This document shows, piece by piece, positions 8,599 through 34,110 of a stretch of DNA of 35,473 bases. Under the pieces are notes generated by a model, which made no database searches, was not told where the DNA came from, and saw only the letters and a program-made list of their open reading frames with translations. The DNA is taken from assembly GCA_020160875.1 (NCBI GenBank), contig JAIUPE010000017.1:1-35473 (forward strand). The letters are read 5' to 3'. Made by a program: the position numbers and the translations under genes. This DNA is from Pseudomonadota bacterium. Its GTDB lineage: Bacteria; Pseudomonadota; Alphaproteobacteria; Rhodospirillales; Rhodospirillaceae. Each line of letters begins with the position of its first letter. Positions within the stretch are counted from its first letter, which is position 1.

Positions 8599-8682
8599 TT
8601 CCGCGGGATCGGCTTATTTCTTTTCCGCGGGATCAGCTTATTTTTGTTCCGCGGGATCAGCTTATTTTTGTTCCGCGGGATC
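8599..8682. repeat. 24-bp tandem repeat, about 3.5 units, spanning a stop codon
   Basis: Units start at 8599, 8623, 8647 and 8671 (the last is partial); the core is TTCCGCGGGATC followed by AGCTTATTTTTG or a close variant. On the minus strand each full unit reads Asp-Pro-Ala-Glu-(Gln/Lys)-Lys followed by a stop codon, so the last seven codons of the cupin gene, stop included, are repeated beyond its real end. The inner units end in TAA and the outermost in TGA. Confidence 0.9.
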
Positions 8683-9186
8683 GCGGTGCACGGGATCGAC
8701 CCAGAGCACCGCCTCTGGCTTTTCCACCGGCTCGATCTCGAGGTTGATGGCGACAGCTTCGTTGTCGCTGCGCACCAGCACGCATTCCAGGGTTTCGTCG
8801 CGAGAAGCGTTGATCTCCTGGTGAGGCACGAAGGGCGGCACGAAGATGAAGTCGCCCGGCCCGGCTTCGGCGGTGAACTCGAGCTTATTGCCCCAGCGCA
8901 TGCGGGCGCGGCCCTTCACCACATAGATCACGCTTTCGAGATGGCCATGATGGTGAGCCCCGGTCTTGGCCCCGGCGTGGATATGCACGGTACCGGCCCA
9001 TATTTTTTGAGCCCCGACGCGGGCGAGATTGATAGCGGCCTGGCGGTTCATGCCGGGCGTCTGGGCGGTGTTGGCATCGAGCTGATCGCCGGGGATCACC
9101 TTCACGCCGTTGTGCTTCCAATCCACATGCTCGTGGCTGTGGTCATCGTGGTCATGGTCGTGATGATGGTGATCACCGTGCGGCAT
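8662..9186 (-). CDS. Cupin-domain protein with His/Asp-rich N-terminus
   Basis: A 174-residue protein from the ATG at 9186 (AGGAG 9 nt upstream); upstream in-frame ATGs lack support. Residues 4-20 are a metal-chelating tail of His and Asp. The single cupin domain follows: IHAGAKTGAHHHGHLESVIYVVKG holds the first metal motif (G-x5-H-x-H-x3,4-E type) and AGPGDFIFVPPFVPHQEIN the second. Mononuclear metal binding is likely; activity cannot be named. No signal peptide is seen, so the His-rich tail probably acts in the cytoplasm as a metal store or loading segment (inference). The 3' end, including the stop, is part of the 24-bp tandem repeat. Confidence 0.85.
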   Translation of the reverse strand: MPHGDHHHHDHDHDDHSHEHVDWKHNGVKVIPGDQLDANTAQTPGMNRQAAINLARVGAQKIWAGTVHIHAGAKTGAHHHGHLESVIYVVKGRARMRWGNKLEFTAEAGPGDFIFVPPFVPHQEINASRDETLECVLVRSDNEAVAINLEIEPVEKPEAVLWVDPVHRDPAEQK

Positions 9187-9365
9187 CGCGAAGCGCTCCT
9201 GACGGAAAGACCTGAACAACTTTAGCATGATGGGACCGGTTTCCTCCAAGAGGACTTGAGCCACGCACCGTTCCGGGCATCGTCTGTTGCTCGTGCGGCC
9301 GGCTCTCATGTCCGGCGCCGCCCGACGCCGACGGTAGGAAAACACCGATGCGCGCAAGAAGCGCG

Positions 9366-9713
9366 CTAATCCCACTTGTTAAATGAGAAGTAGGCGGCGA
9401 GCACGAGACAGCCGAACGCGGCGAGGTGATTCCATTTGAAACTTTCGCCGAGATAGGTGACCGAGAACACCGCGAAGACCGCAAGCGTGATCACCTCCTG
9501 CATCGTCTTCAACTGCGCGGCGGTGTAGACGGTGTAGCCGATGCGGTTGGCGGGCACCGCAAGGCAGTATTCGAAAAAAGCGATCCCCCAGCTTATGGGG
9601 ATCACCAGCCACAGCGACGTGCCCGGGAATTTGAGCTGCCCGTACCATGCGAAAGTCATAAAGACGTTCGAGATCAGCAGAAGGCCGATCGGCGCCGCGT
9701 AAGCCCAGGTCAT
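9366..9713 (-). CDS. DUF486 (DMT superfamily) small membrane protein
   Basis: A 115-residue protein with four hydrophobic segments, matching the DUF486 family: WYGQLKF, SWGIAFFEYCLAVPANRIGY, the LKTMQEVITLAVFAVFSVTYLGE stretch and the C-terminal YFSFNKWD region are its hallmarks. The family belongs to the drug/metabolite transporter superfamily; substrate unknown. GGAGAG lies 7 nt upstream of the ATG at 9713, and the upstream open frame has no membrane-protein character. Confidence 0.88.
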   Translation of the reverse strand: MTWAYAAPIGLLLISNVFMTFAWYGQLKFPGTSLWLVIPISWGIAFFEYCLAVPANRIGYTVYTAAQLKTMQEVITLAVFAVFSVTYLGESFKWNHLAAFGCLVLAAYFSFNKWD

Positions 9714-9872
9714 TCGTTCTCTCCGGTATATTGATAAGCGCCAATTTTCCGCACGGGCGGCCGCAGACGTCACCGGCGGGCGAGTTATTCCCTGGCCCTT
9801 CAAAAATTAAGCGCTGGCTTCTTTTATCCAATGTAACAAATTCTTGGAACCGCAAGGCGTTAGGGAGCCACC

Positions 9873-10703
9873 TTGTCCCGGTTCAAATCAGCATGTGTCG
9901 GATTTACCGCGCTGCTTATCGGCGCGCCAGCCCTAGCCGGCAATGACCTCGTCATTCCGGGCTTCAACACCGGCGTTTCCGTGCAGTCCTATCTGCGCCT
10001 GTCCAACAACGACGGTGCGCCGGCCCAGGTCAGCGTGCGTATGCACGACGCCGCGACCGGGATCGCGATCGGCACATGGACATCACCGGTGTTGCCCGCG
10101 GGCGGTACGATGGAAACATGGGCGCAACAGATGCTCACGGGCGCCGATCCTAAACCCGACATGGCGCACCTGCCGCCGGTGCTGGTGCTGGCAATCTCGG
10201 GCTTCGCCGGTCACGTTCAGCACGCAACCTGGACGCCATCCAGCGGCACATGGAGCCATATATCGACCTGCGGCATGGTGTTGATGGCCGACCCCTTGTC
10301 GTTGCCTTTCGTCATCGGACCCGCGCGGGGCGGCTTGACAGGCATTGTGCGCGTCTCCAACGCGACCGCTGAAACACGCGCGCTGAAAGTGACGTTTCAC
10401 GACAGCGCGAATACACCGTACGTCTGGCAAAGCCCTGCCATCCCCTCCTACGGCGCGGCCGCTGCGACCATGGAGACCATCGCGCGCGAAACGTCACCGC
10501 CGATCCCCCCGACCGTCACATCGCTGATGGCCATGGCCGAGGCGGCGCCGGCCGGCGTCGCGCTGTCTTATAGCGAAGGCCTCGCGGGCGGAAACACCTT
10601 CGATGACTTCAGCGCCGGGTGCATGTCCACGATGGCCGCGCCGGTGGGCCCCGGCACGCCGACGACGCCGACCACTCCCGTGCCGGGCATGCCGCACGCC
10701 TAG
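9873..10703 (+). CDS. Secreted two-repeat protein of unknown function, TTG start
   Basis: A 276-residue exported protein: signal peptide 1-22 (ending GAPALA), two related beta-rich repeats and a Pro/Thr-rich tail (GPGTPTTPTTPVPGMPHA). Repeat 1 (about 38-90) reads SYLRLSNNDGAPAQVSVRMHD ... SPVLPAGGTMETWAQQ; repeat 2 (about 163-210) reads GIVRVSNATAETRALKVTFHD ... SPAIPSYGAAAATMETIARE. This suggests two copies of one beta-sandwich. GGGAG 6 nt before the TTG supports that start. I recognise no family. It precedes the CHRD-autotransporter gene by 72 bp and may belong to the same envelope locus. Confidence 0.75.
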   Translation: MSRFKSACVGFTALLIGAPALAGNDLVIPGFNTGVSVQSYLRLSNNDGAPAQVSVRMHDAATGIAIGTWTSPVLPAGGTMETWAQQMLTGADPKPDMAHLPPVLVLAISGFAGHVQHATWTPSSGTWSHISTCGMVLMADPLSLPFVIGPARGGLTGIVRVSNATAETRALKVTFHDSANTPYVWQSPAIPSYGAAAATMETIARETSPPIPPTVTSLMAMAEAAPAGVALSYSEGLAGGNTFDDFSAGCMSTMAAPVGPGTPTTPTTPVPGMPHA

Positions 10704-10775
10704 GCGCGACGGACCGCTTCAATCTTGTTTGTTCTGTTGCTTCGACTCACACATCCCAAAGGGGGGGAGGAACCC

Positions 10776-12287
10776 ATGAGAAAGTCGAGACTGCTTTTGA
10801 GCACGGCGCTCGCCGTAATGGCGGCGACCAGCGCGCACGCTGGAACGCTCTACATCAGCAACATGCAGTATGAAGGCGCGCCAAACCCGTCCCAGGCCCG
10901 TGGTACCGGCTTCCTGATCCTCGACGATGCGCAGGCCAACGCGACCGTCTATGCCACGCACGACATCGCCACGCGCGGCACGAGTCCGCTCACGCTCGGC
11001 CACATCCATCGCGCGCCGGCGGGCGTCAACGGTCCGGTGATCTTCGGCTTCACCCCGGTTCCGCCCGTGAGCCCCGTCGGTCCCTTGGTGTGGGCGATCC
11101 CGCAGGCCGAGCTGGCGAACCTCAACAACGCCGGGCTGTACATGCAGTTCCACACCCAGCTCAATCCGGCGGGCGAAATTCGCGGACAAATCGTGCGCGC
11201 GGCGTTCGCGCCGGCAGCGACGACGGATACGCAGATGCTGGTGGCCAATGCTCTCGATGTATCAGCGGGCCGCAACACAGACCTCGACCAGGTGTTGATG
11301 GGCCGCTTCGCCTCGACCGTAACGACAGCTGCCCGCACGCAGAGCCTCGACGACCTGTCCGGCCGCACGCTGTACGCGGCAGGCCGTCAAGCCGTGGAGT
11401 CGATGCAGGGGTTCCAGGATTCGCTCTTCGAACATGCCGAAGACGTGGCGGGAAAAGACACCGAGGGCTTCGGCGGCTTCGTCGGCGGCGGCATGGTATT
11501 CGGCACCCGCGAAACCGACAGCGCGACGGCCGGCGCGAAAATCTCGCGTCCCTATGTGATCGCGGGCTTCGACTACGGCATGGGCAGCGGCGCCAACGTG
11601 GGCCTGTCGGTGGGCTATGCGGATGGCAAAGACGAATTCCGCAACGCCCTCGGCGAAACCAACGTGAAGACCACGGCGGTGCAGGCGCACGTCTCCGGCG
11701 GCAATGAAAGCGTCGTGTTTGCCGCGGCCGTGGGATACGGCTGGGTGGACGCGGACTCGACCCGCGCCATCACGAGCCTTGCCCGCACGGCGACCGGCGC
11801 GCAGGACGGCAAGGTCCTGTCGGCGGGCGTGAAACTCTCGGTACCGCTGAAGCTGGACGGCGATTCCACCATCGCGCCGTACGGCCTCATCGACTATCAG
11901 GTCGCCAAGATGGACGCCTACACCGAAACCGGCGCGAACAGCGTCTCGCTGATGGTCGGCGAACATAAGGAAAAGAGCGCGGCCGCCGAACTGGGCGCGG
12001 CATTCGAAGTGCCGATGGGTGCGGGCGGCGACACGCATATCCGCCTGCTGGCCGGATACCGCTATCTGCTCGAGGACGGCAAGGACACCATCGAGAGCCG
12101 CTTCGTCGGTTCGGCGGCGACCTTCAACACCCTCGTCCGCTCGCCCGGCATCAACGGTGTGCGCGTGGGCGCGAACCTCGGCGCCAAGGTCAGCGATAAC
12201 ATGTTCATTTCCGCTGGCTACAACGGCACCATCTCCGGCCGAACCAAACTGCACGCCCTGGAAGCGCGCCTGACCTTGAAGATGTAG
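10776..12287 (+). CDS. CHRD-domain autotransporter (surface protein with beta-barrel)
   Basis: A 503-residue protein: signal peptide 1-22 (TSAHA/GT), CHRD domain about 23-145 and an autotransporter-type beta-barrel about 230-503. CHRD hallmarks are GHIHRAPAGVNGPVIFGF (75-92) and LYMQFHTQLNPAGEIRGQI (121-139). The barrel has alternating strands such as YVIAGFDYGMGSGANVGLSVGYADG. Between them lies a linker with LMGRFASTVTTAARTQSLDDL. The CHRD domain is thus probably displayed at or passed through the outer membrane. The C-terminus is LTLKM, not the usual aromatic residue. A very strong purine-rich ribosome binding site lies at 10761-10770. Ligand unknown; bacterial CHRD proteins are poorly characterised. 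Confidence 0.88.
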   Translation: MRKSRLLLSTALAVMAATSAHAGTLYISNMQYEGAPNPSQARGTGFLILDDAQANATVYATHDIATRGTSPLTLGHIHRAPAGVNGPVIFGFTPVPPVSPVGPLVWAIPQAELANLNNAGLYMQFHTQLNPAGEIRGQIVRAAFAPAATTDTQMLVANALDVSAGRNTDLDQVLMGRFASTVTTAARTQSLDDLSGRTLYAAGRQAVESMQGFQDSLFEHAEDVAGKDTEGFGGFVGGGMVFGTRETDSATAGAKISRPYVIAGFDYGMGSGANVGLSVGYADGKDEFRNALGETNVKTTAVQAHVSGGNESVVFAAAVGYGWVDADSTRAITSLARTATGAQDGKVLSAGVKLSVPLKLDGDSTIAPYGLIDYQVAKMDAYTETGANSVSLMVGEHKEKSAAAELGAAFEVPMGAGGDTHIRLLAGYRYLLEDGKDTIESRFVGSAATFNTLVRSPGINGVRVGANLGAKVSDNMFISAGYNGTISGRTKLHALEARLTLKM

Positions 12288-12306
12288 TGCACGAAAGATG
12301 TAGCAT

Positions 12307-12990
12307 TTGAAGAAAACGTGGTCCGCGATCCGCATCGCTTTCTTTGTGTTCGCCGCGGGGCTTCTCCATCACCCGGGAAGCGCCTTTGCGAAACCGGTGA
12401 GCTATGTGGGCGGACTGATGCTGATGCAGGAGAACGATGCCGGCGGCCATACGGTGGGGCTCGATTACACCGTGACCCCGCGTATGGCCGTCGCGTTCCA
12501 TGCGCAGTATCATATCCGCGGCGATAACTTCACGATGCTCGGGCCGCAGATGAACTTTCTGATCAACCGGTGGAACGCACCGCGCAGCCAGGGGAACATC
12601 TTCGCCAATGTGGGCGGCGGCACGACCATCGACCGGAACGGCGATATGAGGCCGGCCACATGGACCGGCCTTCTCGCCGACTTTGAGACCCGTCGGCTGT
12701 TCGTCTCCTACGAAGTGCGGGCGATGTATGCACCGAAGGTGGAACGTTCATTGTGGCAGCGCGCGCGGGCGGGGGTCGCGTTCAGTCCCGTCGACTACAC
12801 GAAGGTAAGCCCCTGGGCGATGGTGCAGGTCGACTACCGCGATGAGAAACACCTTGGTCTGCATGTGGGCGCGCGCGAACCGAAGATGGAAATCACGCCG
12901 CTGATCCGCGTGATGTACCGGGCCTTCCTGATCGAAGGCGGTGTGAGTCACCGGGGTAAATTAATGTTCAACTGGGTGAAACAGTTTTAG
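12307..12990 (+). CDS. Outer-membrane beta-barrel protein, unknown family, TTG start
   Basis: A 227-residue protein with a signal peptide (about 1-28, ending GSAFA) and strand-like alternation throughout, ending in a C-terminal phenylalanine (NWVKQF), the usual signal for outer-membrane barrel insertion. Each barrel strand is followed by short polar turns (LDYTVTPRMAVAFHAQYHI, GLLADFETRRLFVSYEVRAMY). It starts 19 bp after the CHRD gene with TTG; no ATG in frame would preserve the signal peptide. One base separates its stop from the start of the HMA-domain gene, so the two are almost certainly co-expressed. This tight link suggests a role in metal export or sensing at the outer membrane (inference). 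Confidence 0.75.
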   Translation: MKKTWSAIRIAFFVFAAGLLHHPGSAFAKPVSYVGGLMLMQENDAGGHTVGLDYTVTPRMAVAFHAQYHIRGDNFTMLGPQMNFLINRWNAPRSQGNIFANVGGGTTIDRNGDMRPATWTGLLADFETRRLFVSYEVRAMYAPKVERSLWQRARAGVAFSPVDYTKVSPWAMVQVDYRDEKHLGLHVGAREPKMEITPLIRVMYRAFLIEGGVSHRGKLMFNWVKQF

Positions 12991-12991
12991 G

Positions 12992-13285
12992 ATGAGACCC
13001 ATGCGTGTCATCGCCTTCATCAGCGTTCTTCTGGCCGCAGGCGCCGTAAATGCGGAGACCATCACCGCTTCCGTGAACGGCATGGTGTGCGCGATCTGCG
13101 TGACGGGGATCGAGAAGAGTTTCCAAAAGAACCCGGCGGTGGACAAGGTGAAGGTGGATCTGGAGACGGGCAAAGTGACCGTCGACACCAAGGCCGGCGC
13201 GACCCTGGACGACGCCACCGTCACGAAGACCATCGTGAATGCCGGTTACGCGGTGACCGAGATCACCCGCGCAAGCGGCCGGTAG
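12992..13285 (+). CDS. Periplasmic heavy-metal-associated (MerP-like) protein
   Basis: A 97-residue protein with signal peptide (about 1-21) and one HMA domain carrying the metal motif GMVCAIC (30-36; Cys33 and Cys36). The ferredoxin-like order of strands and helices follows: ITASVNGMVC, VTGIEKSFQK, VDKVKVDLETGKVTVDTK, VTKTIVNAGYAVTEI. Such proteins bind Hg(II), Cu(I) or similar soft metals through the two cysteines. A second ATG at 13001, with AGGA 10 nt upstream, is an equally good start and gives a tidier signal peptide. It lies between the barrel gene and a MerT-like membrane protein. No MerA or MerR is present, so classical mercury reduction is not indicated. Confidence 0.88.
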   Translation: MRPMRVIAFISVLLAAGAVNAETITASVNGMVCAICVTGIEKSFQKNPAVDKVKVDLETGKVTVDTKAGATLDDATVTKTIVNAGYAVTEITRASGR

Positions 13286-13291
13286 CCTTCC

Positions 13292-13675
13292 TTGCAGAAC
13301 AGTGAGCGTCCGACATCGGCGCTGGTCTGGATCGCGCTGTTCACATCCTTCGGAACGCTGATCTGCTGCGCGCTGCCGGCGATGCTGGTCGCGCTCGGCG
13401 CGGGCGCCGTGGTGGCGGGCCTGGTGACCGCCGTGCCGCAGGTCGTGGCGATCTCGATCTACAAAGACTATATGTTCGCGGGCGCGGGTGTTCTGCTTCT
13501 CACGGCTGCAGTCATGAGATACGCGACCCGTAACGCCCCCTGCCCCATCGATCCCCATGAGGCCGATGCCTGCCGCCGCCTGCGCCGGCTCAGCGGCTGG
13601 ATTTTGGGAGCCGCAGGCCTCGTCTACGCCGTCGGGTTCTTCTTCGCCTATATTGCAATTTATGTACTGGGTTGA
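13292..13675 (+). CDS. MerT-like small membrane protein, TTG start
   Basis: A 127-residue protein with three or four membrane segments (about 11-31, 34-52, 59-76, 103-126). The vicinal pair Cys25-Cys26 in FGTLICCALPAMLVALGAG lies in the first segment, as in mercuric transporter MerT. A second conserved-looking motif, APCPIDPHEADACRR (Cys84, Cys94), lies in a loop. It starts with TTG 6 bp after the HMA gene. MerT-type proteins receive a soft metal from a MerP-type partner and move it across the inner membrane; a similar handover is likely here, but the metal is unknown. It could also be a thiol-sensing protein. Confidence 0.75.
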   Translation: MQNSERPTSALVWIALFTSFGTLICCALPAMLVALGAGAVVAGLVTAVPQVVAISIYKDYMFAGAGVLLLTAAVMRYATRNAPCPIDPHEADACRRLRRLSGWILGAAGLVYAVGFFFAYIAIYVLG

Positions 13676-13696
13676 GCGGTCGATTTCCGGAAGCCT

Positions 13697-13726
13697 TTGA
13701 CAGGCGTCTGGGCGTTCCAGCATTGT
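13697..13726 (+). promoter_or_regulatory. Candidate promoter for the MBL-fold gene, possibly leaderless
   Basis: A perfect TTGACA (13697-13702) is followed after 18 nt by CATTGT (13721-13726, three of six matches). The start codon is at 13734, seven bases beyond, and no ribosome binding site is visible, so the transcript may begin at or next to the ATG. Confidence 0.35.
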
Positions 13727-13733
13727 CCCGCCT

Positions 13734-14597
13734 ATGACCCATCCGCACGTCCAGTCGTTTTTCGACACCACGACCAATTCCGTCAGCTACGTCGTTTCAG
13801 ACCCTGCGACCAACGCCTGCGCCATTATCGACCCGGTGCTTGATTATGACGCTGTATCCGGACGCACCTCGCGCAGATCGGCCGAGTCCTTGCTCGCCTT
13901 TGTCCGCGCCGAAGGCTTGACGCCGCACTGGCTCCTGGAAACCCACGCGCACGCCGATCACGTTTCCGCCGGGCATGTCCTGCGCCAGGAGACGGGTGCG
14001 AAGATCGGTATCGGCGCCAGAATCGTCGAGGTCCAAAAAACCTTTGGCTCGCTGTTCAACATGAAGGACCTCGCGACCGACGGGCGGCAGTTCGACCGGC
14101 TGTTCGCCGACGGCGAGGAAATCGCCCTTGGGAAGATGAAGATTCGCGTGATGCACACGCCTGGGCACACACCCGCCTGCGTCACCTACCTGGTCGGCGA
14201 TGCGGCTTTCATCGGCGATACGATGTTCATGCCCGACTATGGCAGCGCCCGTGTCGACTTCCCAGGCGGCAACGCCGCGGCGCTCTATAAATCCGTGCGC
14301 AAGATCCTCGCGTTGCCGGAGAGCACCCGCATCTTCTGCTGCCACGACTACAAAGCGCCGGGCCGCGATAAATTCGCCTGGGAGACCACGGTCGCTCAAC
14401 AACGCCGCGCGAACCTGCATGTGCGTGATGGCGTGAGCGAAGATGAATTCGTCGCCATGCGCACGGCACGCGATAAGACCCTCAACATGCCCGCGCTGCT
14501 GATCCCCGCCATCCAGCTCAACATCCGGGCGGGCGCGCTACCGCCGGCGGAGGACAACGGCGTGGCTTACGTGAAAGTCCCGCTGAACGCGATTTAG
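13734..14597 (+). CDS. MBL-fold metallohydrolase, ETHE1/Blh persulfide dioxygenase-like
   Basis: A 287-residue metallo-beta-lactamase-fold enzyme close to the ETHE1/Blh persulfide dioxygenases. Metal ligands are visible: HAHADH (71-76) in LLETHAHADHVSAGHVL, His145 in HTPGHTPACV, Asp162 in FIGDTMF and His203 in IFCCHDY. DYGSARVDFPGG (168-179) is typical of the subgroup. In that family a single iron oxidises glutathione persulfide to sulfite, detoxifying sulfide-derived sulfane sulfur. The gene follows the MerT-like gene by 58 bp and probably has its own promoter. It could instead be another glyoxalase-II-like hydrolase, but the motif set favours persulfide dioxygenase. Confidence 0.85.
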   Translation: MTHPHVQSFFDTTTNSVSYVVSDPATNACAIIDPVLDYDAVSGRTSRRSAESLLAFVRAEGLTPHWLLETHAHADHVSAGHVLRQETGAKIGIGARIVEVQKTFGSLFNMKDLATDGRQFDRLFADGEEIALGKMKIRVMHTPGHTPACVTYLVGDAAFIGDTMFMPDYGSARVDFPGGNAAALYKSVRKILALPESTRIFCCHDYKAPGRDKFAWETTVAQQRRANLHVRDGVSEDEFVAMRTARDKTLNMPALLIPAIQLNIRAGALPPAEDNGVAYVKVPLNAI

Positions 14598-14620
14598 GCC
14601 CCGCACCGTACGCCGCGGCC

Positions 14621-15109
14621 TTATTTCTTTTCCGGGACTCCCTTCGCCGTCGGTGACGGCTTTGAGGCCGCGGGACCGACGCCGACGATGGCGATGATGG
14701 TGTCCTCGTTCTTGGCGCCGTCCCAATGCACTTGCTTGGCATGGTGGACCACGTAGCTGCCGGCGGGCATGGGCACGGTCGCGTTCTCGGGATCGAAGAC
14801 ATCACCGGTGCCGACCCACCAGGTGCCCGAGAGCACGTAGATATAGCGGTCGTTTTCGTGGAAGTGCGGCCGGCTGAAGTTGTTGCCGGCTTTCCACTTG
14901 TTCAAGAGCACATAGAGTTCGCCCGGTTTCTGCGGATCGCCCTGCAAGACCGCGACTTCGGCGCCCGGCGAGCCCGGCGCCCATTTGATGTCCTTGGGCA
15001 GGACAAATTTCAGCGCCTTCGGATCCAGGATGGACGCGTCGGCGGCCATGACGGGCGCGGACACGAGAAGCGTGGCGGTGGCAGCCAAAGCAAAACGCAG
15101 CGCTGTCAT
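14621..15109 (-). CDS. Exported cupin-domain protein
   Basis: A 162-residue protein with signal peptide 1-22 (ending APVMA) and one cupin domain. NFSRPHFHENDRYIYVLSGTWWVGTGDVFDP holds the first metal motif (His-x-His-x(n)-Glu-like, here HFHENDRY) and MPAGSYVVHHAKQVHWDG the second. A periplasmic metal-binding cupin is likely; function unknown. It is unrelated in its details to the His-rich cupin at 8662. The ATG at 15109 is preceded by GGGGAGG, which lies inside a perfect hairpin. It is convergent with the MBL gene and lies 56 bp downstream of der on the same strand. Confidence 0.85.
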   Translation of the reverse strand: MTALRFALAATATLLVSAPVMAADASILDPKALKFVLPKDIKWAPGSPGAEVAVLQGDPQKPGELYVLLNKWKAGNNFSRPHFHENDRYIYVLSGTWWVGTGDVFDPENATVPMPAGSYVVHHAKQVHWDGAKNEDTIIAIVGVGPAASKPSPTAKGVPEKK

Positions 15110-15116
15110 GACATGA

Positions 15117-15138: not shown

Positions 15139-15165
15139 ATGATGGCACAGCTTGGCACAGAGCGG

Positions 15166-26496: not shown

Positions 26497-28068
26497 CTAA
26501 CGACGGAAAAGCCGCATCATTTTACGCAAAGGCGCGGTGACTTTCCATGAGGTCGACCGGCGCATGGCGTCGAGCTCCTGCTCGCGGTCGTGCAGGAGTC
26601 GGCGCATCTTCTGGATTTCCTGCTGGGCATAGGCGGTTTCGGCGAGATAGCGCTCGGTCTCGGGCCGGTGGAATTTCAAGGGATCGGCGTTCAGCTCTTC
26701 CGCGCTGACGATGAAGAACGCCTCGGCCGCCGTGACGTTGCCGAGCAGCGTATAGGTGCGGTAGCGGTTGAGCGCCGCGATCTGTTCGTCGTAGCGCTGG
26801 GTTTCGAGCTGTGAGCGGAAGCAAGCGATGGCCTTCTGCTTGAGGGCCTGTACCGGCGAAATGTCGAGCAGCAGGTTGGGACGCTGGGGCGCGCCGATTT
26901 CATAGAAAGCAAGGCGCGTGCCGGGCTTGCGTTTCACCGCCTCCACCGCCGCCATGGCGAGGATGCGGTGATCCGGATGTTGTTCGGAAACGGCCGGCGC
27001 ATAGACAAGATCGATGCCGTCCATGGCCGCGAGGACCTTGGCAATCAAAGGCTCGCCATAAGCCAGCGCGCGGTCGGGCAGATTCCAGAACAACGGTTCG
27101 CCGTAGCCGAGCACCTGCGCGGCCGCGCGGGCTTCGTCCTCGCGCGTGCGCGCGCGTTGGCGTTCGATGTCCGTCGCGCCGATCTCACCTTTCTTATAAG
27201 CACCGTCGGTGGCGACGATCACCTGCACCGGAACTTTCGCCGCCACATGGCGAGCAATAGCGCCGCCGCAACCGAACACCTCGTCGTCGGGATGCGGCGC
27301 GAGCACGAGCACGGATGTGGCGGGAATTTCGCTGACCGACTTATGCGGAACGATGGCATCTTCCGGCGTCTTGAAGCTTGCGCCGGGCAGCGCGCTGTTC
27401 GCGTCACGCGTATAGCTAACGATGCGCGTGTCCTCGCCCCAGTAGGAGCCCTGACAGGACGCGCGGTTGGTTTCGCGGAGCGTCCGCTCCCACTCGCGCA
27501 TGGTGGTTTCGGCGCCGGCGCCGAGCAGACCCCAGCGCTTGGTGACGCTATCGATCGCCGACCCGAAAACGAGCAAGCCGCCCGGCGCGAGCTTCGAGGC
27601 AATACGATCGACGGCTCGCGCGAGAGTCTCGTGATCGGGCAAATAACAAAGCACCTCGGCGACGACAATTACATCGAAGGTCTTTCCGGCGGCGAAGTCG
27701 TCGGTGACCGAGCTGACCTCCCACTGGATGTTACCATGGTCCTTCAATTTCGCCGCCGCGCGCTCGACGGCGGCGGGCATGACGTCGACGACGTGCAGCG
27801 ATTTGCATTGCGGGGCAAGCAGCGAAGTGAAGACACCGGCCGCGCAGCCGATTTCGAGCCCGCGCTCGAACGCGGGCGCGCCCACGCCGGCATGCGCGCG
27901 CATCATGTCGAGAATGATGGCGTAACGCCGCGCCTCGAACAGATTGGTGCCCAGCCGCCAGGGATCCTCCGACGCCATTTCGGCCGAGAGGTGCTCAGCG
28001 ACATTTAAAGGTCCGGCCATCTTTTCGGCCCCCACAGACCGATAGAGTAGTGTTTTTTTTGACACCAT
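26497..28068 (-). CDS. Bifunctional NodS-like methyltransferase / PIG-L deacetylase
   Basis: A 523-residue fusion. Residues about 20-215 are a SAM methyltransferase of NodS type: DPWRLGTNLFEARRYAIIL, GLEIGCAAGVFTSLLA (motif I, 70-85), VVAEVLCYLPD. Residues about 250-420 are a PIG-L/LmbE deacetylase with the zinc motif APHPDDE (257-263) and a second HPDH (364-367). The C-terminus has a coiled coil and the S-x-SWKVTAPLR motif common at the ends of cell-surface glycan enzymes. PIG-L enzymes remove N-acetyl from GlcNAc-type substrates; NodS N-methylates the freed amine of Nod-factor precursors. A deacetylate-then-N-methylate role is inferred. It precedes a glycosyltransferase gene in the same operon. 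Confidence 0.88.
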   Translation of the reverse strand: MVSKKTLLYRSVGAEKMAGPLNVAEHLSAEMASEDPWRLGTNLFEARRYAIILDMMRAHAGVGAPAFERGLEIGCAAGVFTSLLAPQCKSLHVVDVMPAAVERAAAKLKDHGNIQWEVSSVTDDFAAGKTFDVIVVAEVLCYLPDHETLARAVDRIASKLAPGGLLVFGSAIDSVTKRWGLLGAGAETTMREWERTLRETNRASCQGSYWGEDTRIVSYTRDANSALPGASFKTPEDAIVPHKSVSEIPATSVLVLAPHPDDEVFGCGGAIARHVAAKVPVQVIVATDGAYKKGEIGATDIERQRARTREDEARAAAQVLGYGEPLFWNLPDRALAYGEPLIAKVLAAMDGIDLVYAPAVSEQHPDHRILAMAAVEAVKRKPGTRLAFYEIGAPQRPNLLLDISPVQALKQKAIACFRSQLETQRYDEQIAALNRYRTYTLLGNVTAAEAFFIVSAEELNADPLKFHRPETERYLAETAYAQQEIQKMRRLLHDREQELDAMRRSTSWKVTAPLRKMMRLFRR

Positions 28069-28175
28069 AACGGTGCTTATCGATTATTGAAACCGGGAGA
28101 CAAGGCGGACGAGACGTGGGACAAGAGGCCGCCGTTTCACCTTACGTTGTAACGGCCTAGAGCGAGTGAGCGCGG

Positions 28176-29210
28176 ATGGACGAGCGGCTAGCGATTGTGG
28201 TGTTCAGCCTGGGGGGCCCGGATAGCCCCGAGGCCGTGCGCCCGTTCCTGTTCAACCTTTTCAACGACCGTTACATCATTCCTTGGGTCCAGCCGTTCCG
28301 CTGGCTGCTGGCGCGCACCATCTCGGGCCTGCGCGCCAAGAAGTCCCGGGGCTATTACGCCCGTCTCGGCGGACGTTCGGTGCTGCTTCCGGAAACGACC
28401 GCGCAGGCCAAAGCCCTGGAAAACGCCGCGGCGCATTACGCCAAGGACGTGCGCGCTTTCGTTTACATGCGCTACTGGCACCCGATGGCGCCGGAGGTTG
28501 TGGCGCAATTGAAAGCCTATGCGCCGACGCGCATCGTGGTCGTACCGATGTATCCGCAATATTCCACCACGACCACCGGTACGTCGGTCGATGCGCTGGC
28601 CAAGGAAGCGCGCGCGCAAGGGCTGACGACGCCCTTTGAAGTCATATGCTGCTTCCCCACGGCCGCGGGCTTCATCGCGCCGATGGTGTCGATGATCGGC
28701 AAAGCTTACGCGGAGGCGGCCGCCACGGGACAAAGGCCGCGCCTGCTGCTGACGGCGCACGGTCTGCCGGAAAAGACCATCGCCAGCGGCGATCCTTATC
28801 AGTGGCAAGTCGAACAAACCGCCGCGGCGGTGGTCGCAGGGCTGAAGATCGAGAATCTAGATTGGGCGATCTGCTATCAGAGCCGCGTTGGCCCTGCGAA
28901 ATGGATCGGCCCGTCGACCGAAGCGGAGATCCAGCGCGCGGGCAAGGACGGCGTTTCGCTGATCGTCGCGCCGATCTCGTTCGTTTCGGAACATGTCGAG
29001 ACGTTGGTGGAACTCGACGAGACCATGCGCGATCTGGCCAAGGAGTCCGGTGTACCGGACTACAAGCGCATCCCCGCGGTGCGCACCGATGCGACCTTCG
29101 TCGCGACGCTGGCTGGCTTCATCGGCTTCCTGAAGGGGCGCACCACGCCTTGTTCAGACACCGGCGCCAGATTGTGCCCCGCAAAGTTCGGCGCCTGCCC
29201 GCACAAATAG
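28176..29210 (+). CDS. hemH: Ferrochelatase
   Basis: A 344-residue ferrochelatase, which inserts Fe(II) into protoporphyrin IX to make haem. Signatures are VVFSLGGPDSPEAVRPFL at the start, PMYPQYSTTTTG, the catalytic LLTAHGLPEK (His195), CYQSRVGPAKWIGP, and ISFVSEHVETLVELDE with the acidic active-site residues. The C-terminus carries Cys326, Cys334 and Cys341. Some bacterial ferrochelatases, including that of Caulobacter, bind a [2Fe-2S] cluster, and this tail is a good candidate for such ligands. It is divergent from the methyltransferase/deacetylase gene. Confidence 0.96.
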   Translation: MDERLAIVVFSLGGPDSPEAVRPFLFNLFNDRYIIPWVQPFRWLLARTISGLRAKKSRGYYARLGGRSVLLPETTAQAKALENAAAHYAKDVRAFVYMRYWHPMAPEVVAQLKAYAPTRIVVVPMYPQYSTTTTGTSVDALAKEARAQGLTTPFEVICCFPTAAGFIAPMVSMIGKAYAEAAATGQRPRLLLTAHGLPEKTIASGDPYQWQVEQTAAAVVAGLKIENLDWAICYQSRVGPAKWIGPSTEAEIQRAGKDGVSLIVAPISFVSEHVETLVELDETMRDLAKESGVPDYKRIPAVRTDATFVATLAGFIGFLKGRTTPCSDTGARLCPAKFGACPHK

Positions 29211-29225
29211 TCGCGCACCGCGCGA

Positions 29226-29242
29226 GGGATTCATCGAATCCC
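29226..29242. other. Hairpin after hemH
   Basis: A perfect stem GGGATTC-ATC-GAATCCC, 15 bp after the hemH stop, followed by a second small stem CACATT-CCT-AATGTG (29257-29271). No T-run. It possibly ends or protects the hemH transcript. The rest of the gap to 29375 shows nothing else. Confidence 0.4.
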
Positions 29243-29374
29243 GGCGGAACCGGCCCCACATTCCTAATGTGATATCCCCGTCAAACCCATGACGGGTCAT
29301 GAAAGGCGTCGGACTTATCATCGCGAGGGCGCCGTCGCGAGGGCCGGCGGCGATCCGCGCCTTCTACGCGCGCG

Positions 29375-29794
29375 TCACTCCGCAAAAACAAGCGCGGGCG
29401 CCTTGCCCCGTTCTACAACAACGACAGCATATTGCCCAAAGCGGCGGGCCAGCGCGAGCGCATCGTCGCGCGGAAGATCGAACACAAAAAGACCGGCCTC
29501 GGTCGGACCGCTATCGTCCGCGTCACGGCCGCGCGCGAGCACGTATTCTTTGCCCGCACGCCGCACAGCCTCAAGCAGCGCGCCGTGGGCCACCGCGTTC
29601 TTTTCTTCGGCCTGGACTTCACTATGCGGGTTGTAGGCGGTCACGAACACGCCCGTCGCCGCGCCGCGCTTTACCAGGTATCCGTCCAAAGCCGAATTTT
29701 GTTCATCCACTTGGAAGGCCAGCGGCTCGCCGTCCACATCAATTTCGTAAATAGCCGCACGATAAGCGGCGATCAGATCGGACGGAACGGGCAC
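29375..29794 (-). CDS. DUF3293 family protein, GTG start
   Basis: A 139-residue soluble protein. GVFVTAYNPHSEVQAEEKNAVAHGALLEAV is the DUF3293 hallmark (TA-x-NP followed by the N-x(n)-L helix), and the C-terminus (FDLPRDDALALARRFGQYAVVVVERG) matches its second half. Function unknown. The start is GTG at 29794, with AGAGG 5 nt upstream. It is convergent with hemH. Confidence 0.78.
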   Translation of the reverse strand: MPVPSDLIAAYRAAIYEIDVDGEPLAFQVDEQNSALDGYLVKRGAATGVFVTAYNPHSEVQAEEKNAVAHGALLEAVRRAGKEYVLARGRDADDSGPTEAGLFVFDLPRDDALALARRFGQYAVVVVERGKAPALVFAE

Positions 29795-29926
29795 ATGAAC
29801 CTCTGAAGCGAAATATCGGCGAACACCGGACAGCGATCAGAAGCATAGGCCGGAATGACAGGCAAGTGCGGTGGTGTGTTCGTGGCGGCAATACCGCCCC
29901 CGACGCGGCGTTTATGGGACCGCGCG

Positions 29927-30700
29927 TCAGGTCATCGACCAGCCATGACTTACATTGAGCGATTGGCCGGTCAGCGCGTTGGTCTCGAACGCGGCGAAGA
30001 ACAGCACTGCTTGTGCGACGTCGTCGACGGTTGAGAACTCTCCGTCCACGGTGCCCTTGAGCATGATGTTCTTCACGACGTCTTCTTCGGAAATACCAAG
30101 GGTCTTCGCCTGCTCCGGAATTTGTTTGTCCACCAGCGGCGTGCGTACAAACCCCGGGCAGACGACGTTGGCGCGCACGCCGTGAGCGGCGCCTTCCTTG
30201 GCCACGACTTTCGCAAGCCCCATGAGACCATGCTTCGCGGTCACATAGGGCGCCTTCAGCGGCGAGGCTTCCTTCGAATGGACGGACCCCATGTATATGA
30301 CGGCGCCGCCGGTGCCCTGTTTATACATATGACGCAGTGCGGCGCGCGTGGTGAGGAACGCGCCGTCGAGATGGATCGCCATCAGACGCTGCCAATCCTT
30401 ATAGGCGAAGTCCACGAGTGGCGCGACGATCTGGATGCCGGCGTTGCTGACGAGAATGTCGATCTTGCCGAAATGCTGCACGGCGCGGTCGATGCCCGCG
30501 TCCACTTGGGATTCCTGGGTGACGTCCATGGCGACGCCAAGCGCATTCGGCCCGAGTTCGCGCGCCGTCGCTTCGGCTTGCGCGGCGTTGAGGTCGGCGA
30601 TGACGACTTTCGCGCCGGCTTTCACGAAGACCTCGGCGATGCCGCGGCCTATGCCGCTGGCCGCGCCGGTGACGACCGCGACCTTACCGACCACACTCAT
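29927..30700 (-). CDS. bdhA: 3-hydroxybutyrate dehydrogenase (SDR family)
   Basis: A 257-residue short-chain dehydrogenase. [17 protein letters not shown] (9-25) is the NAD site, [13 protein letters not shown] follows, and the active site is [22 protein letters not shown] with Ser, Tyr and Lys. The [20 protein letters not shown] sequence and the C-terminal [16 protein letters not shown]-like end are typical of D-3-hydroxybutyrate dehydrogenase, which oxidises the PHB breakdown product to acetoacetate. AAGGAG lies before the ATG at 30700; the longer frame upstream is Arg-rich and not coding. It is downstream of a GST gene and near phaZ, consistent with PHB use. Confidence 0.9.
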
Positions 30701-30765
30701 GTATTTCTCCTTTTTCGCGGGCGACGTTTTCGGAACCCCGCTTCGCACGTTTCCGAATCGCGCGC

Positions 30766-31419
30766 TTAGAACTCCGCTTCCAGTTCTTCGACCTCGTCCG
30801 GTTCGGTCTTGGCGGCTTCCGTCCAAGCGACGACCGGTTCCCACGCGCGGATTGTATCGCAATAAGCGCGACACACGGGATCGAGTTTTATGTCATAGGT
30901 GACGAAGCGTGTGCACACCGGCGCGTACATCGCGTCGGCCATGCTGGGCGTTTTGCCGAAAAGATAAGGTCCGCCATAGCGCGCGAGACAATCGCGCCAA
31001 ATCTCGCATACGCGCTCGATGTCCGGCTTCGCGCCCGTCCAAACCTTGAAACCGGGAAATTGAGCCTTGAGATTCATGGGGAGCGCCGAGCGCAGGTTCA
31101 TGAATCCGGAGTGCATCTCACCGCTGATGGAACGGCAATGCGCACGCGCCTTTGGATCGGACGGCAGCAACCCCGCATCCGGCCTCAGCTCGGCGAGATA
31201 TTCGGCGATGGAGAGCGTGTCCCAGACGGTTATGCCGCGGTGCTCCAGTCTCGGCGTCAGGAACGACGGCGATAATAAAAGGAGTTCCGCGCGGGTGGCG
31301 GGATCATCGATCCCGGCGATCTTTTCCGCGATCTCCAGGCCCGCCATTTTGCATAGGAGCCATCCCCGGAAAGACCAGGATGAGTAGTTTTTACTGGAAA
31401 TCGTAAGTGTCGCCGCCAT
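30766..31419 (-). CDS. Glutathione S-transferase family protein
   Basis: A 217-residue protein with the thioredoxin-like N-terminal domain ([24 protein letters not shown], with candidate catalytic serines in NYSSWS) and a helical C-terminal domain ([47 protein letters not shown]). The [14 protein letters not shown] box is the GST C-terminal signature. Substrate unknown. The stop is 65 bp before the bdhA start on the same strand, so they may be co-transcribed. The C-terminal tail is acidic ([10 protein letters not shown]). Confidence 0.88.
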
Positions 31420-31550
31420 TGGACCTCATGGCGGCCCCGGAGTTCCTCAACCCTATGGTTCGGCGCCGCAAAAGGATCATCTCGCACCGCAGCAAAAATT
31501 GCACTAGGCTTTTTCTGGGGAGAAGCCAGAATGCAACGAGCTGGGGATAG

Positions 31551-32765
31551 ATGCTTTATTCGTTTTATGAACAACAGCGTACGTGGAGCGAGCCGCTTCG
31601 CCAGATGGCGGGGCTAGCGCGCGATACGCTTATGCCGCTTACAATGTGGCCCGGCGGCGTCGGCATGTCGCATGTGACCGCGGCGTTCGACCTCCTCTCA
31701 CGGACCGCACTCACCCACGAGCATCCCGGTTACGATATCGATCATGTGTTGATCGACGGTCACCCGGTGCCGGTGACTGAGGAAATCGCGGCGACATCCC
31801 CCTTCTGTACCTTGTTGCGATTCAGAAAACCGAGCATCACCGGCCAGCCGAAGGTTCTGGTGGTCGCGCCGCTGTCCGGCCATTTCGCGACCCTTCTGCG
31901 CGATACCGTGCGCACGCTGCTCGCCGATCATGACGTTTTCCTGACCGACTGGCACAACGCCCGTGACATCCCCGTGACCCACGGCGACTTCGGTTTCGAC
32001 GACTGCATCGAACACATCATCAGCTTCCTGGAGACCATCGGCCCAAAAGCGCATGTGATCGCGGTGTGCCAGCCGTGCGTGCAAGTGTTGGCCGCCGTCG
32101 CGGTGATGGCCGAGAGCAAAAATCCGGCGACGCCGTTGTCCATGACCTTGATGGCCGGCCCCATCGACACCCGCGTGCAGCCGACGAAAGTGAATGAACT
32201 CGCCCTCAGTCACCCGATCGAATGGTTCGAGCAGAACCTGATCACCGAAGTGCCCGCGCCCCTCGCCGGCGCGGGGCGCAAGGTATATCCGGGCTTCCTG
32301 CAATTGACGGCGTTCATGTCGATGAACGGCGCACGCCATATGAAAGCGCATAGCGATCTTTATTCGCACCTCGCCACCGGCGATGTCGAACGCGCCAACG
32401 ACATCAAAACGTTTTACGATGAATATTTCGCGGTGTTCGATCTACCTGCGCGTTTCTATCTCGAGACAGTGAAGCGTGTGTTCCAGGACGCAGATCTCGC
32501 GCGCGGCGCCCTCACTTATAAAGGTAAGCCCGTAGACCCATCAGCGATCAAGAAGACCGCGCTGCTGACGGTCGAAGGCGAGCATGACGACATCTGCGCG
32601 GTGGGACAGACCTTAGCGGCTCATGACTTGTGTACGGGCCTGAAGCCTTTCCTGAAGCGCCATCACCTTCAACCGGGCGCGGGTCACTACGGTGTCTTCA
32701 GCGGCCGCAAATGGCGGACTCAAATTTATCCGCTGGTGCGCAACCTCATGCTTTCGGCGACCTGA
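31551..32765 (+). CDS. phaZ: Intracellular polyhydroxyalkanoate (PHB) depolymerase
   Basis: A 404-residue alpha/beta hydrolase of the intracellular PHB depolymerase family, which degrades native PHB granules. Family features are the start LYSFYEQQRTWSEPLR, VLVVAPLSGHFATLLRDTVRTLL, the DVFLTDWHNARDIP block, and the lipase-box-like AVCQPCVQVL where Cys176 replaces the usual nucleophilic serine. The charge relay is completed by Asp346 or Asp347 (VEGEHDDICAVGQT) and His379 (GAGHYGVFSG). GGGG lies close upstream of the ATG. The last ten codons and the stop are duplicated downstream as part of a 62-bp repeat. Confidence 0.95.
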   Translation: MLYSFYEQQRTWSEPLRQMAGLARDTLMPLTMWPGGVGMSHVTAAFDLLSRTALTHEHPGYDIDHVLIDGHPVPVTEEIAATSPFCTLLRFRKPSITGQPKVLVVAPLSGHFATLLRDTVRTLLADHDVFLTDWHNARDIPVTHGDFGFDDCIEHIISFLETIGPKAHVIAVCQPCVQVLAAVAVMAESKNPATPLSMTLMAGPIDTRVQPTKVNELALSHPIEWFEQNLITEVPAPLAGAGRKVYPGFLQLTAFMSMNGARHMKAHSDLYSHLATGDVERANDIKTFYDEYFAVFDLPARFYLETVKRVFQDADLARGALTYKGKPVDPSAIKKTALLTVEGEHDDICAVGQTLAAHDLCTGLKPFLKRHHLQPGAGHYGVFSGRKWRTQIYPLVRNLMLSAT

Positions 32766-32880
32766 TCGTCTTTCAGTTTGCCGGCCTTCGCCGGCGGGTG
32801 CGCAACCTCATGCTCCCGGCGACCTGATCGTCTTTCAGTTTGCCGGCCTTCGCCGGCGGGTGCGCAACCTTATGCCTTCG
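32735..32880. repeat. 62-bp tandem repeat (2.3 units) made from the 3' end of phaZ
   Basis: Units start at 32735, 32797 and 32859 (the last about 22 bp). Each full unit holds the last codons of phaZ (V-R-N-L-M-L-S/P-A-T-stop), TCGTCTTTCAGTTT, and a hairpin GCCGGC-CTTC-GCCGGC (32780-32795 and 32842-32857). Units 1 and 2 differ at two positions. From 32881 to 33020 I see no gene. Confidence 0.92.
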
Positions 32881-33020
32881 ACAATCGAGGCATCTTCGCG
32901 CGATGCGCGTATTTCTCACGCGATTGTGCCTACGACCTCTCATTCGATCCAATCCGGTCGCATTTTCTCCTCAATGTCGCGTTCAGCTTGTTGCCGAAGT
33001 GACGCGGATTGTTCGCGCAC

Positions 33021-33046
33021 GGAACCGGAGTTCCTTCTGTAACGTT
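33021..33046 (+). promoter_or_regulatory. EcfG-type general-stress promoter
   Basis: GGAAC (33021-33025), 17 nt, CGTT (33043-33046): an exact match to the alphaproteobacterial EcfG consensus GGAAC-N16/17-CGTT. The start would be near 33053, about 60 nt before the GTG of the RcnB-like gene. I found no second match to this pattern in the intergenic regions I checked. Confidence 0.6.
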
Positions 33047-33113
33047 TACACCCGGACTCGGTTCGTACGTGCCGGCTTCCCCCGAGTCACACCGGCGATT
33101 TAGGAGAACCCCC

Positions 33114-34007
33114 GTGAAAAAGCTCATCTTGAGCGCCACCGCCCTGACCTTCCTGGCCAGTTCCGTCGCGACGGCCATGCCTGTGGCGAAGGCGCATCCC
33201 GCCGTACAGAACGCAACCCTGTCTCAGCTGGTGCAATATCGCGGCGACGACCGTCGCGATTACGATCGCCGCCGCGACGACCACGATTTCAAACGCGGCG
33301 ACCGTTTGCCGCGCGGCCTGCGCGATAAACATCACGTCTATTACGGTTGGCGTGAAAGCAATCTGCCGCGCCCGCCCCGGGGTTATCAGTGGCTGATGAT
33401 CGGCGACCAATACGTGCTCGCCTCGATCTTCAACGGCCGGGTACGGGAGGTGCGCGATGTGGAGCGTGTGGAACGCCGCGCGGACCGTGAGGAACGCCGT
33501 GCGCGGCGTGAATACAGCCGCGCCGAACGTGAAGCACAGTGGCGTGCTCGCTATGCCCGCCAGTACAATCTGAATGACGACCAGTACTATCGCGAGTGCT
33601 CACGCAAGCCCGACCCCGCCGGCGCGCTCGTCGGCGCGGTGATCGGCGGGCTGCTTGGCAACGCCGCCGGGAACCGCCGCAATGAAACGACGACGACGAT
33701 CGTGGGCGTGGTCGCCGGCGGCGCCATCGGCGCGGCGCTGACCAGCAAGCTCGACTGCAACGACCGCAGTTACGCCTATAAGACCTACACCACCGGTTTC
33801 AACGCAGGCAAAGCCAATGCCTACTATGATTGGCGGAATCCACAGTCCGGCACGCGCGGCCAGCTGCATGTGCTCGACTATTACGAGGACGAAGACAACT
33901 TCAACTGCACCGTCTACAGCCAGAAGATCTGGATCGACGGCCGTCCGCAAGAAGCTCGAGGGCGCGCATGTCAGCAACCTGACGGTGCGTGGGCCATCAT
34001 CGACTAA
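33114..34007 (+). CDS. RcnB-like envelope protein with glycine zipper, GTG start
   Basis: A 297-residue exported protein. Signal peptide about 1-21; RcnB-type domain about 60-112 (KRGDRLPRGLRDKHHVYYGWRESNLPRPPRGYQWLMIGDQYVLASIFNGRVREV); a basic helix of Arg/Glu repeats 113-148; a glycine-zipper hairpin 170-212 (GALVGAVIGGLLGNAAG, IVGVVAGGAIGAAL) able to enter a membrane; and a C-terminal domain with paired cysteines (ECSRKP, KLDCND, NFNCTVY, RACQQP) ending AWAIID. The GTG at 33114 has TAGGAG about 7 nt upstream. A likely general-stress promoter precedes it. RcnB domains in E. coli affect nickel/cobalt homeostasis; here a structural or stress role in the envelope is as likely. Confidence 0.85.
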   Translation: MKKLILSATALTFLASSVATAMPVAKAHPAVQNATLSQLVQYRGDDRRDYDRRRDDHDFKRGDRLPRGLRDKHHVYYGWRESNLPRPPRGYQWLMIGDQYVLASIFNGRVREVRDVERVERRADREERRARREYSRAEREAQWRARYARQYNLNDDQYYRECSRKPDPAGALVGAVIGGLLGNAAGNRRNETTTTIVGVVAGGAIGAALTSKLDCNDRSYAYKTYTTGFNAGKANAYYDWRNPQSGTRGQLHVLDYYEDEDNFNCTVYSQKIWIDGRPQEARGRACQQPDGAWAIID

Positions 34008-34110
34008 CGGTGTGTGAAACAGCGCGCCCTCTAAACAAAAAATGCCGGCCGCCGCCGGCGGGGCGCGCATGTCAGCAACCTGACGGTGCGTGGGCCATCA
34101 TCGACTAACG
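33960..34110. repeat. 50-bp exact direct repeat duplicating the 3' end of the RcnB-like gene
   Basis: 33960-34009 and 34061-34110 are identical over 50 bp and include the final codons and TAA stop of the gene. The 51-bp spacer carries GCCGGC-CGCC-GCCGGC (34044-34059), preceded by an A-tract; read on the minus strand this is a hairpin followed by ATTTTTTG, a terminator shape. Confidence 0.95.

Follow-up and report, generated by a model that had tools for sequence, protein, structure and literature searches.

The window analysed here, a stretch of 35,473 nt, is part of a 219-contig draft of the 3.76-Mb genome of an uncultured alphaproteobacterium. The original prediction was that three of its genes, encoding a cupin, a PhaZ-like and an RcnB-like protein, have their 3' ends repeated downstream together with the stop codon, and these repeats exist at the positions predicted (Table 1). 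The phaZ array consists of 2.3 copies of a 62-bp unit (32735-32875, 96% matches), comprising two complete TGA-bearing units and a partial third. The 50-bp tail of the rcnB-like gene is repeated exactly, with a spacing of 101 bp between the first copy (A1) and the second copy (A2). As predicted, the new copies begin one base past a hairpin GCCGGC-N4-GCCGGC, at 32797 and 32859 in phaZ and at 34061 in the rcnB-like locus.

Table 1. Genes, repeats and hairpins at the three loci of the window.
Feature	Position	Strand	Basis
Cupin gene (PF07883)	8662..9375	-	domain match
In-frame tandem repeat of the last cupin codons and stop, no hairpin seen	8594..8682	-	24-bp unit x3.7, 93% matches
phaZ-like gene, PHB depolymerase C-terminus (PF06850)	31551..32765	+	domain match
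First 62-bp unit of the phaZ tail, containing the TGA stop and a hairpin	32735..32796	+	repeat analysis
Hairpin GCCGGC-CTTC-GCCGGC, edge of phaZ copy 2	32780..32795		pattern search
Second unit of the phaZ tail (copy 2), including the stop	32797..32858	+	repeat analysis
Second phaZ hairpin, edge of partial third copy	32842..32857		pattern search
Partial third phaZ tail copy, without stop	32859..32880	+	repeat analysis
rcnB-like gene with RcnB domain (PF11776); C-terminus weakly similar to the 17-kDa antigen, under that family's cut-off	33114..34007	+	domain match
A1, first copy of the 50-bp rcnB tail with stop; opening 8 bases are arm R	33960..34009	+	repeat analysis
R' (GCGCGCCC), inverted copy of arm R	34022..34029	+	repeat analysis
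AT-rich 14-nt spacer, R' to rcnB hairpin	34030..34043	+	R' scan
rcnB hairpin GCCGGC-CGCC-GCCGGC	34044..34059		pattern search
A2, second copy of the 50-bp rcnB tail, identical to A1	34061..34110	+	repeat analysis

The three genes had been expected to share one outcome. This was borne out for phaZ and the rcnB-like gene, which belong to the same hairpin-junction class, but at the cupin gene the repeat is a tandem array of the ordinary sort, in frame with the gene. It reads DPAEQK*A per unit and, since the 24-bp unit is in frame, every unit repeats the stop codon. The units lie head to tail without an intervening palindrome, and no looped hairpin was seen in 8594-8682.

Nearby direct repeats were surveyed in 1.59 Mb out of the 3.76-Mb genome, and 28 were found. 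In 12 of them the second copy begins at the edge of a palindrome: seven were detected by an objective test on short hairpins at that edge, and five have longer palindromes that were judged by eye. The objective edge test gave 7/28 against 0.76 expected (P = 8e-6). Two of the sampled stretches had been chosen for containing known cases, and without them the result was 4/24 (P = 0.004). The loci share one architecture: the gene, A1, a short new sequence with a small GC-rich palindrome at its end, A2 starting from the palindrome edge, and the original downstream flank. The duplicated part measures about 17-67 bp, and its end is often no more than a few bases away from that of the gene. Eight of the 12 loci copy a gene end with its stop codon, one nearly does so, one copies a gene start and two copy tRNA ends. 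The recurrent process postulated from the window is thus supported, and it mostly affects gene ends, with tRNA ends and one gene start also among the copied sequences.

When the edge test was applied to 1.07 Mb of control sequence (400 kb from a congener, 205 kb from a sister genome and 463 kb from other alphaproteobacteria), 1 of 13 repeats passed (0/1, 0/5 and 1/7, respectively), and this one is a short tandem repeat. No comparable duplication was seen at 15 hairpin loci from other members of the genus. Windows of 14 bases repeated upstream numbered 8-10 at the hairpin edge and 12, 5 and 9 at 10-40 nt away; because the copies are long, this count does not locate the boundary. One direct repeat in the controls (L113) reflects a duplicated gene, the repeat ending with the gene's stop codon.

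The motif GCCGGC-N4-GCCGGC, with at most one mismatch, occurs 5 times in the window versus 1.25 times in shuffled sequence. The whole genome contains 14 sites compared with 3 for the reversed control pattern, and therefore the motif alone is only modestly enriched. It is present at 3 of the 12 junction loci, and 4 of its 14 genome sites lie at such junctions. Thus, a hairpin at the junction is recurrent as proposed, but this particular motif is not required, and it was rejected as a specific trigger.

The original prediction had suggested looking for single-copy states in relatives, and these are present at 11 of the 12 loci. The hairpin-plus-copy class also occurs at some loci in the two nearest relatives. 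The greA and usp copies are present in the sister assembly, and the rcnB and methyltransferase copies in an outgroup assembly, each with their own substitutions, which indicates that these four are not assembly artefacts. For rcnB, 1 of 6 plus-strand tails is duplicated (in genome G004), a count restricted to the plus-strand tails of 13; the usp locus was not found in G004. Among the gap-free sites at which two genomes have different first copies, in both genomes the second copy agrees with the first at 9/9 sites in rcnB, 4/5 in greA, 3/7 in usp and 4/12 in the methyltransferase locus. Within the genome, the rcnB and greA copies are identical, and those of marR and both tRNAs show no or hardly any differences. 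In six pairs that we chose, the proximal and distal coding copies differ at 22 silent and 3 non-silent codons; silent changes account for 8/10 changed codons in lepA, 4/4 in usp and 5/5 in the e9 locus.

Five of the 12 loci, and one further locus, carry an inverted copy of the start of the repeat 14 nt upstream of the hairpin. Direct-inverted-direct copies were found at six loci (rcnB, purD, tRNA-Gly, CoA-transferase, the L052 locus and greA), with an inverted part of only 7-15 nt. The phaZ, lepA, usp, marR, tRNA-Val and e9 loci have a weak R' or none, and the methyltransferase spacer is 13. The greA arrangement was fitted by eye with a gap, and the rule used to scan for R'-spacer-hairpin-R misses the L052 locus. 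When an exact third copy was demanded, the direct-inverted-direct scan gave a spacer of 14 in 4 of 5 cases (2 of 3 without the chosen stretches), and the controls gave one match with a spacer of 19. A separate scan added a 14-nt case that adjoins truA. At threshold 7, R'-spacer-hairpin-R matches were scattered across many spacers, controls included, and only the exact-third-copy matches favour 14. Such matches numbered 45 in the genome itself, 5 in G002, 4 in G012 and 21 in other alphaproteobacteria, of which 15, 2, 1 and 8, respectively, have a third copy with at most one mismatch. One compensatory R/R' change was seen in each of rcnB and greA, and greA also has one break, as judged by eye. 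We know of no template-switch model that predicts a constant 14-nt spacer, and few loci stand behind this spacer.

We favour, with a probability of roughly 0.5, replication template switching around REP-like palindromes, the products of which survive at gene ends since the gene stays whole. A replication fork would stall at the palindrome, and the nascent strand would switch template and copy the sequence just upstream again, yielding A2; at 5 of the 12 loci the switched strand would also lay down R', the inverted copy of the repeat start. Later slipping of the same sort would keep the copies alike and may amplify (phaZ, lepA, e9) or remove a unit. The preponderance of gene boundaries would have two reasons: an insertion does no harm if it restores the gene end, and selection on one copy keeps the repeat recognisable. 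Under template switching the repeated stop codon needs no benefit. The loci are probably products of a recurring type of DNA-copying error that does not damage the gene and is new in detail but known in kind. Hairpin stems can be created and repaired through template switching, as described in the cited part of PMC8794818, and DUP/INV/DUP small triplications in yeast are attributed to it in that of PMC13334657. Several observations count against template switching: palindrome cores recur, R' is absent or weak at six loci, the models known to us do not predict a constant 14-nt spacer (which is seen at few loci), and at marR and CoA-transferase no source was shown for the new sequence that separates A1 from the palindrome. 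In addition, the proximal and distal coding copies differ almost only silently, more so than would be expected of an inert distal copy. More tentatively, a replicative process of this clade might build small cruciforms from any gene end. It would place a hairpin, put an inverted copy of the flank exactly 14 nt upstream and a direct copy immediately downstream, and hold all copies in step; palindromes would thereby spread into gene ends and leave the genes unharmed.

The prediction had named slippage or template switching and a palindromic mobile element as candidate causes, and each fits part of the data. Mobile palindromes of the REP or YPAL kind, perhaps moved by a Y1/RAYT transposase, could insert near dyad-symmetric gene ends, and A1 and A2 would then be a target duplication of variable length. 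This is the main rival, possible but less probable. The relatives provide empty and filled sites, and the duplications do vary in length. Unlinked loci share the cores of two longer palindromes (marR with tRNA-Val, usp with methyltransferase), and therefore at least those palindromes travel, which local slippage alone does not explain. The genome has three Y1 tyrosine transposase genes (Y1_Tnp, PF01797, above the cut-off). YPAL/RU-2 of Yersinia, in the cited part of PMC2229807, likewise comprises intergenic palindromes with variable duplications of 3-26 bp, with targets near dyad symmetry and with empty and filled sites. However, YPAL is one 168-bp family, whereas the units here are small and diverse: most short hairpins differ in sequence between loci, only the two longer cores recur, and there is no single conserved element. 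The duplications are often above the YPAL range and often end near a gene end. A third copy of one core (C62), with 3 mismatches, has no flanking duplication, and none was seen beside the double hairpin that the sister genome carries downstream of lepA. IS200/IS605 elements, as described in the cited part of PMC2817692, do not make larger target duplications.

If the gene end of a related strain had been imported, through homologous recombination on one side and an illegitimate join at the hairpin on the other, the native tail would have been left behind. Such an import could account for the nearly exclusively silent differences between proximal and distal tails in lepA, usp and e9 and for copy matching that stops close to the gene end, as it does between species. 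It is nevertheless unlikely, as the within-genome identity or near-identity of the rcnB, marR, greA and both tRNA copies does not suit an import, and no lepA donor was found among 15 readable tails of the genus, its own included.

It is very unlikely that R, R' and the hairpin form a selected mRNA end or terminator in which the repeated stop codon guards against readthrough. The greA geometry is kept between this genome and the sister genome, with a 14-nt spacer by eye and one compensatory change, but a consistent T-run after the stem is lacking and the architecture is missing at most loci in relatives. The readthrough safeguard that had been proposed found no support because tRNA ends and a gene start are duplicated in the same arrangement. 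A known structured RNA was rejected, since an Rfam search of seven loci matched only a tRNA. Tandem placement of two strain alleles in the draft assembly, which the 219 contigs and the strain-like silent differences might suggest, is highly improbable given the four copies shared with other assemblies. For phaZ, purD, marR and others the copies come from one assembly. Diversity-generating retroelements, group II introns and retrons were rejected because no match to the reverse transcriptase family RVT_1 was found in the assembly, which is about 91% complete; for the first of these, adenine-directed differences between copies were also not seen, the rcnB and greA copies being identical within the genome.

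The present loci have parallels in known systems. The DUP/INV/DUP triplications of yeast and human resemble the R'-bearing loci in their direct-inverted-direct order, short inverted-repeat junctions and spacer of tens of bases, as given in the cited part of PMC13334657. The present cases differ from these in being bacterial, in copies of about 17-67 bp, in a palindrome that does not come from the copied sequence, in the 14-nt spacer at several loci, in the gene-end location and in that some are kept over species divergence. Quasipalindrome mutation by template switching, described in E. coli and yeast, likewise keeps nearby inverted arms complementary; it corrects existing arms, whereas at the present loci the flank is also copied in direct orientation. 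REP/BIME sequences with a RAYT transposase are also similar in their small hairpins and Y1 genes. The cited part of PMC2817692 gives four cases in which a BIME has incorporated the 3' end of rayt together with the sequence between its stop and the following REP; at the present loci it is the ends of unrelated genes and of tRNAs that are copied. If template switching is the cause, REP-like palindromes, template-switch mutation and gene-end evolution, usually studied apart, would be joined, and the empty and filled loci in relatives would allow the origin and upkeep of hairpins to be followed in nature. The 14-nt geometry, if it holds at more loci, would be a concrete clue to the machinery. It would also follow that a duplicated gene or tRNA end adjoining a hairpin is no sure sign of an integrated element.

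The genome that contains the window is a 3.76-Mb draft of 219 contigs, and we scanned 80 stretches of it (1.59 Mb) for direct repeats with copies 15-400 bp apart. The scan detected 28 places, 21 within the initial 1.2 Mb and another 7 within the 0.39 Mb scanned afterwards, and at 12 of them the second copy starts at the edge of a palindrome. These are phaZ, the rcnB-like gene, purD, lepA, marR, usp, a methyltransferase gene, greA, e9 (a locus encoding a protein without a Pfam match), the start of a CoA-transferase gene, the 3' end of a tRNA-Gly gene and the 5' half of a tRNA-Val gene; protein family names were taken from Pfam, and the gene names are our own assignments. The copied part includes the stop codon at 8 of the 12 loci, stops just before it in the methyltransferase gene, and covers a gene start at one locus and tRNA ends at two. 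Thus, the direct repeats over stop codons with a hairpin at the junction, as proposed in the original prediction, recur in the sampled genome. When the edge was tested objectively, as a short hairpin no more than 6 nt from a copy boundary compared with random positions, 7 of the 12 loci passed (28 places tested, 0.76 expected, P = 8e-6); the remaining five, which have longer palindromes, were judged by eye. Two of the stretches had been picked because they hold phaZ, rcnB and purD, and without them 4 of 24 places pass (P = 0.004). The remaining 16 of the 28 places did not pass, and at least two of these (L055:14158 and L271:9754) also bear palindromes. In a separate scan for genes whose last ten codons and stop are encoded again downstream, eight matches were obtained in the first 1.2 Mb, of which seven were real and the eighth was a chance match in arginine-rich sequence.

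The three repeats first noticed in the window were all re-found at their positions. At phaZ and the rcnB-like gene, every new copy begins one base beyond a GCCGGC-N4-GCCGGC hairpin, and no hairpin was visible by eye in the cupin array.

Repeats and neighbouring features in the window and in sampled loci or stretches (L numbers). A1 and A2, first and second copy of the gene end; G012, sister genome.
Feature	Position	Observation
Cupin array	window 8599-8682	24-bp tandem repeat, in-frame; Cupin_2
phaZ tail	window 32735-32880	62-bp units, two complete and a third truncated; PHB_depo_C
rcnB-like tail	window 33960-34110	A1, 51 bp, A2; A1 and A2 identical at 50/50; RcnB
rcnB-like protein	window 33114-34004	RcnB domain (62-110) joined to a weak C-terminus, glycine-zipper and 17-kDa-antigen-like, both below cut-offs
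Adjacent ORFs	window 3649-5388, 5511-7208	resemble tandem paralogues; DNA likeness 76-82% across several segments
tRNA-Gly loci	L070:4770-4800; L214; L217	inverted T-arm copy, then ~14 nt and GCGGC, kept in three genomes; sequence beyond GCGGC different in each
Tandem duplication	L271:9754-10351	299 bp, opening with a palindrome-like stretch around GGGGACAGTATACTTAATT; in G012 (L224), a long inverted repeat next to truA is made up of this motif
Repeat adjoining a Y1 transposase gene	L034:18210-18250	direct repeat of ATTATCTCTGATATAATTT; motif also repeated in G012 (L199:589)
Dispersed ~106-bp repeat	L074:10817-10922 and 7 similar places (1.2-Mb sample)	nested palindromes; 8 similar copies and one partial; flanking duplication not noticed

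Control genomes gave one direct-repeat place in the congener G002 (400 kb), five in G012 (205 kb) and seven in other alphaproteobacteria (77 loci, 463 kb). One of these 13 places passes the edge test, a tandem repeat of 30-bp period (L083). The order of gene end, novel stretch, palindrome and gene end was seen by eye at none of the 13; about eight such places would be expected in the 1.07 Mb of controls at the rate of the window's genome, and the Poisson probability of finding none is 3e-4, rising to 0.002 with the chosen stretches left out. Re-encoded gene ends gave no matches in the G012 and alphaproteobacterial sets.

We estimate a probability of about one half that the copies arose by replication template switching at the palindromes. 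This reading is favoured by the precise palindrome junction, the direct-inverted-direct order, the exchange between copies and the amplification. Template switching has been described both for RNA hairpins (PMC8794818) and for the formation of small inverted triplications (PMC13334657). At rcnB, purD, tRNA-Gly and CoA-transferase, the arm that starts the first copy (R) is followed by its inverted copy (R'), 14 nt, the hairpin, 0 or 1 nt, and R again at the start of the second copy. When this arrangement was scanned for, the spacer was 14 in four of the five matches whose third copy of R is exact (two of three without the chosen stretches), and the three control sets contained 0, 0 and 1 such matches, the single one with a spacer of 19. 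A separate earlier scan showed a spacer of 14 in 4 of 16 matches and every other value at most twice, and provided a further 14-nt locus beside truA (L052:3801). The methyltransferase gene has a weak R' with a 13-nt spacer, greA fits the geometry only with gaps and by eye, and a clear R' was not found at phaZ, lepA, usp, marR, tRNA-Val or e9. Support for the 14-nt rule thus comes from few loci. At the tRNA-Gly loci of three genomes, breaks at the hairpin apex are possible.

The closest relative found was G012 (95% protein identity), and the outgroup genome G004 is more distant (85%). Single-copy states were observed, mostly by eye, in at least one of the two for 11 of the 12 loci, all except usp; that of greA is in G004. 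At tRNA-Gly, R' and the spacer are present and the second copy is absent in both. The search for lepA covered 19 genomes of the genus; of the 15 tails that could be read, counting that of the window's genome, only the latter is duplicated. The greA and usp duplications are common to this genome and G012, and that of CoA-transferase is also found in G012, partly collapsed. Those of rcnB (degenerate) and the methyltransferase gene are shared with G004 and are single-copy in G012, which indicates that loss or repeated gain must have occurred. The cupin gene of G012 has one copy and the beginning of a second; the array had probably already begun in the common ancestor.

The empty sites in relatives favour a mobile palindrome accompanied by a variable duplication, as described for YPAL (PMC2229807), and so do the travelling palindrome cores; we consider this explanation rather unlikely. 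A 38-bp palindrome pattern is present at two sites in the genome (marR and tRNA-Val). For a 26-bp core there are three sites when up to three mismatches are allowed, two of them exact (methyltransferase and usp). These recurrences indicate that some palindromes have been copied between different sites. The exact copies of the core sit between duplicated flanks, and the repeat scan found no flanking duplication at the third, 3-mismatch copy (C62). Six double hairpins with 10-12 AT-rich linker bases were present in the sample of the window's genome and none in the three control samples; a similar one lies downstream of lepA in G012, outside its control sample. The genome has three Y1 transposase genes and gave no match to a reverse transcriptase. 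Among REP elements, one study reports four cases in which the rayt 3' end, together with the sequence reaching to the next REP, was incorporated into a BIME (PMC2817692). Full-text searches of an open-access collection yielded no title or abstract beginning that presents copied gene ends beside hairpins as a recurrent feature. Template switching and a mobile element may be steps of one process.

The copies evolve in step, as judged at gap-free sites where the first copies differ between two genomes. Both second copies matched their own first copy at 9/9 sites in rcnB and 4/12 in the methyltransferase gene (against G004), and at 4/5 in greA and 3/7 in usp (against G012), or 20 of 33 sites together. 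An independent origin in each genome would produce the same pattern at rcnB. In six pairs of proximal and distal coding copies that we picked, 22 codon changes were silent and 3 non-silent. In one reading, the proximal copy evolves under selection and the rest is kept similar by exchange; in the other, the tails were imported from other strains. The last nine codons of lepA, stop included, differ silently only, and the 199 compared bases upstream of them are 94% identical to G012.
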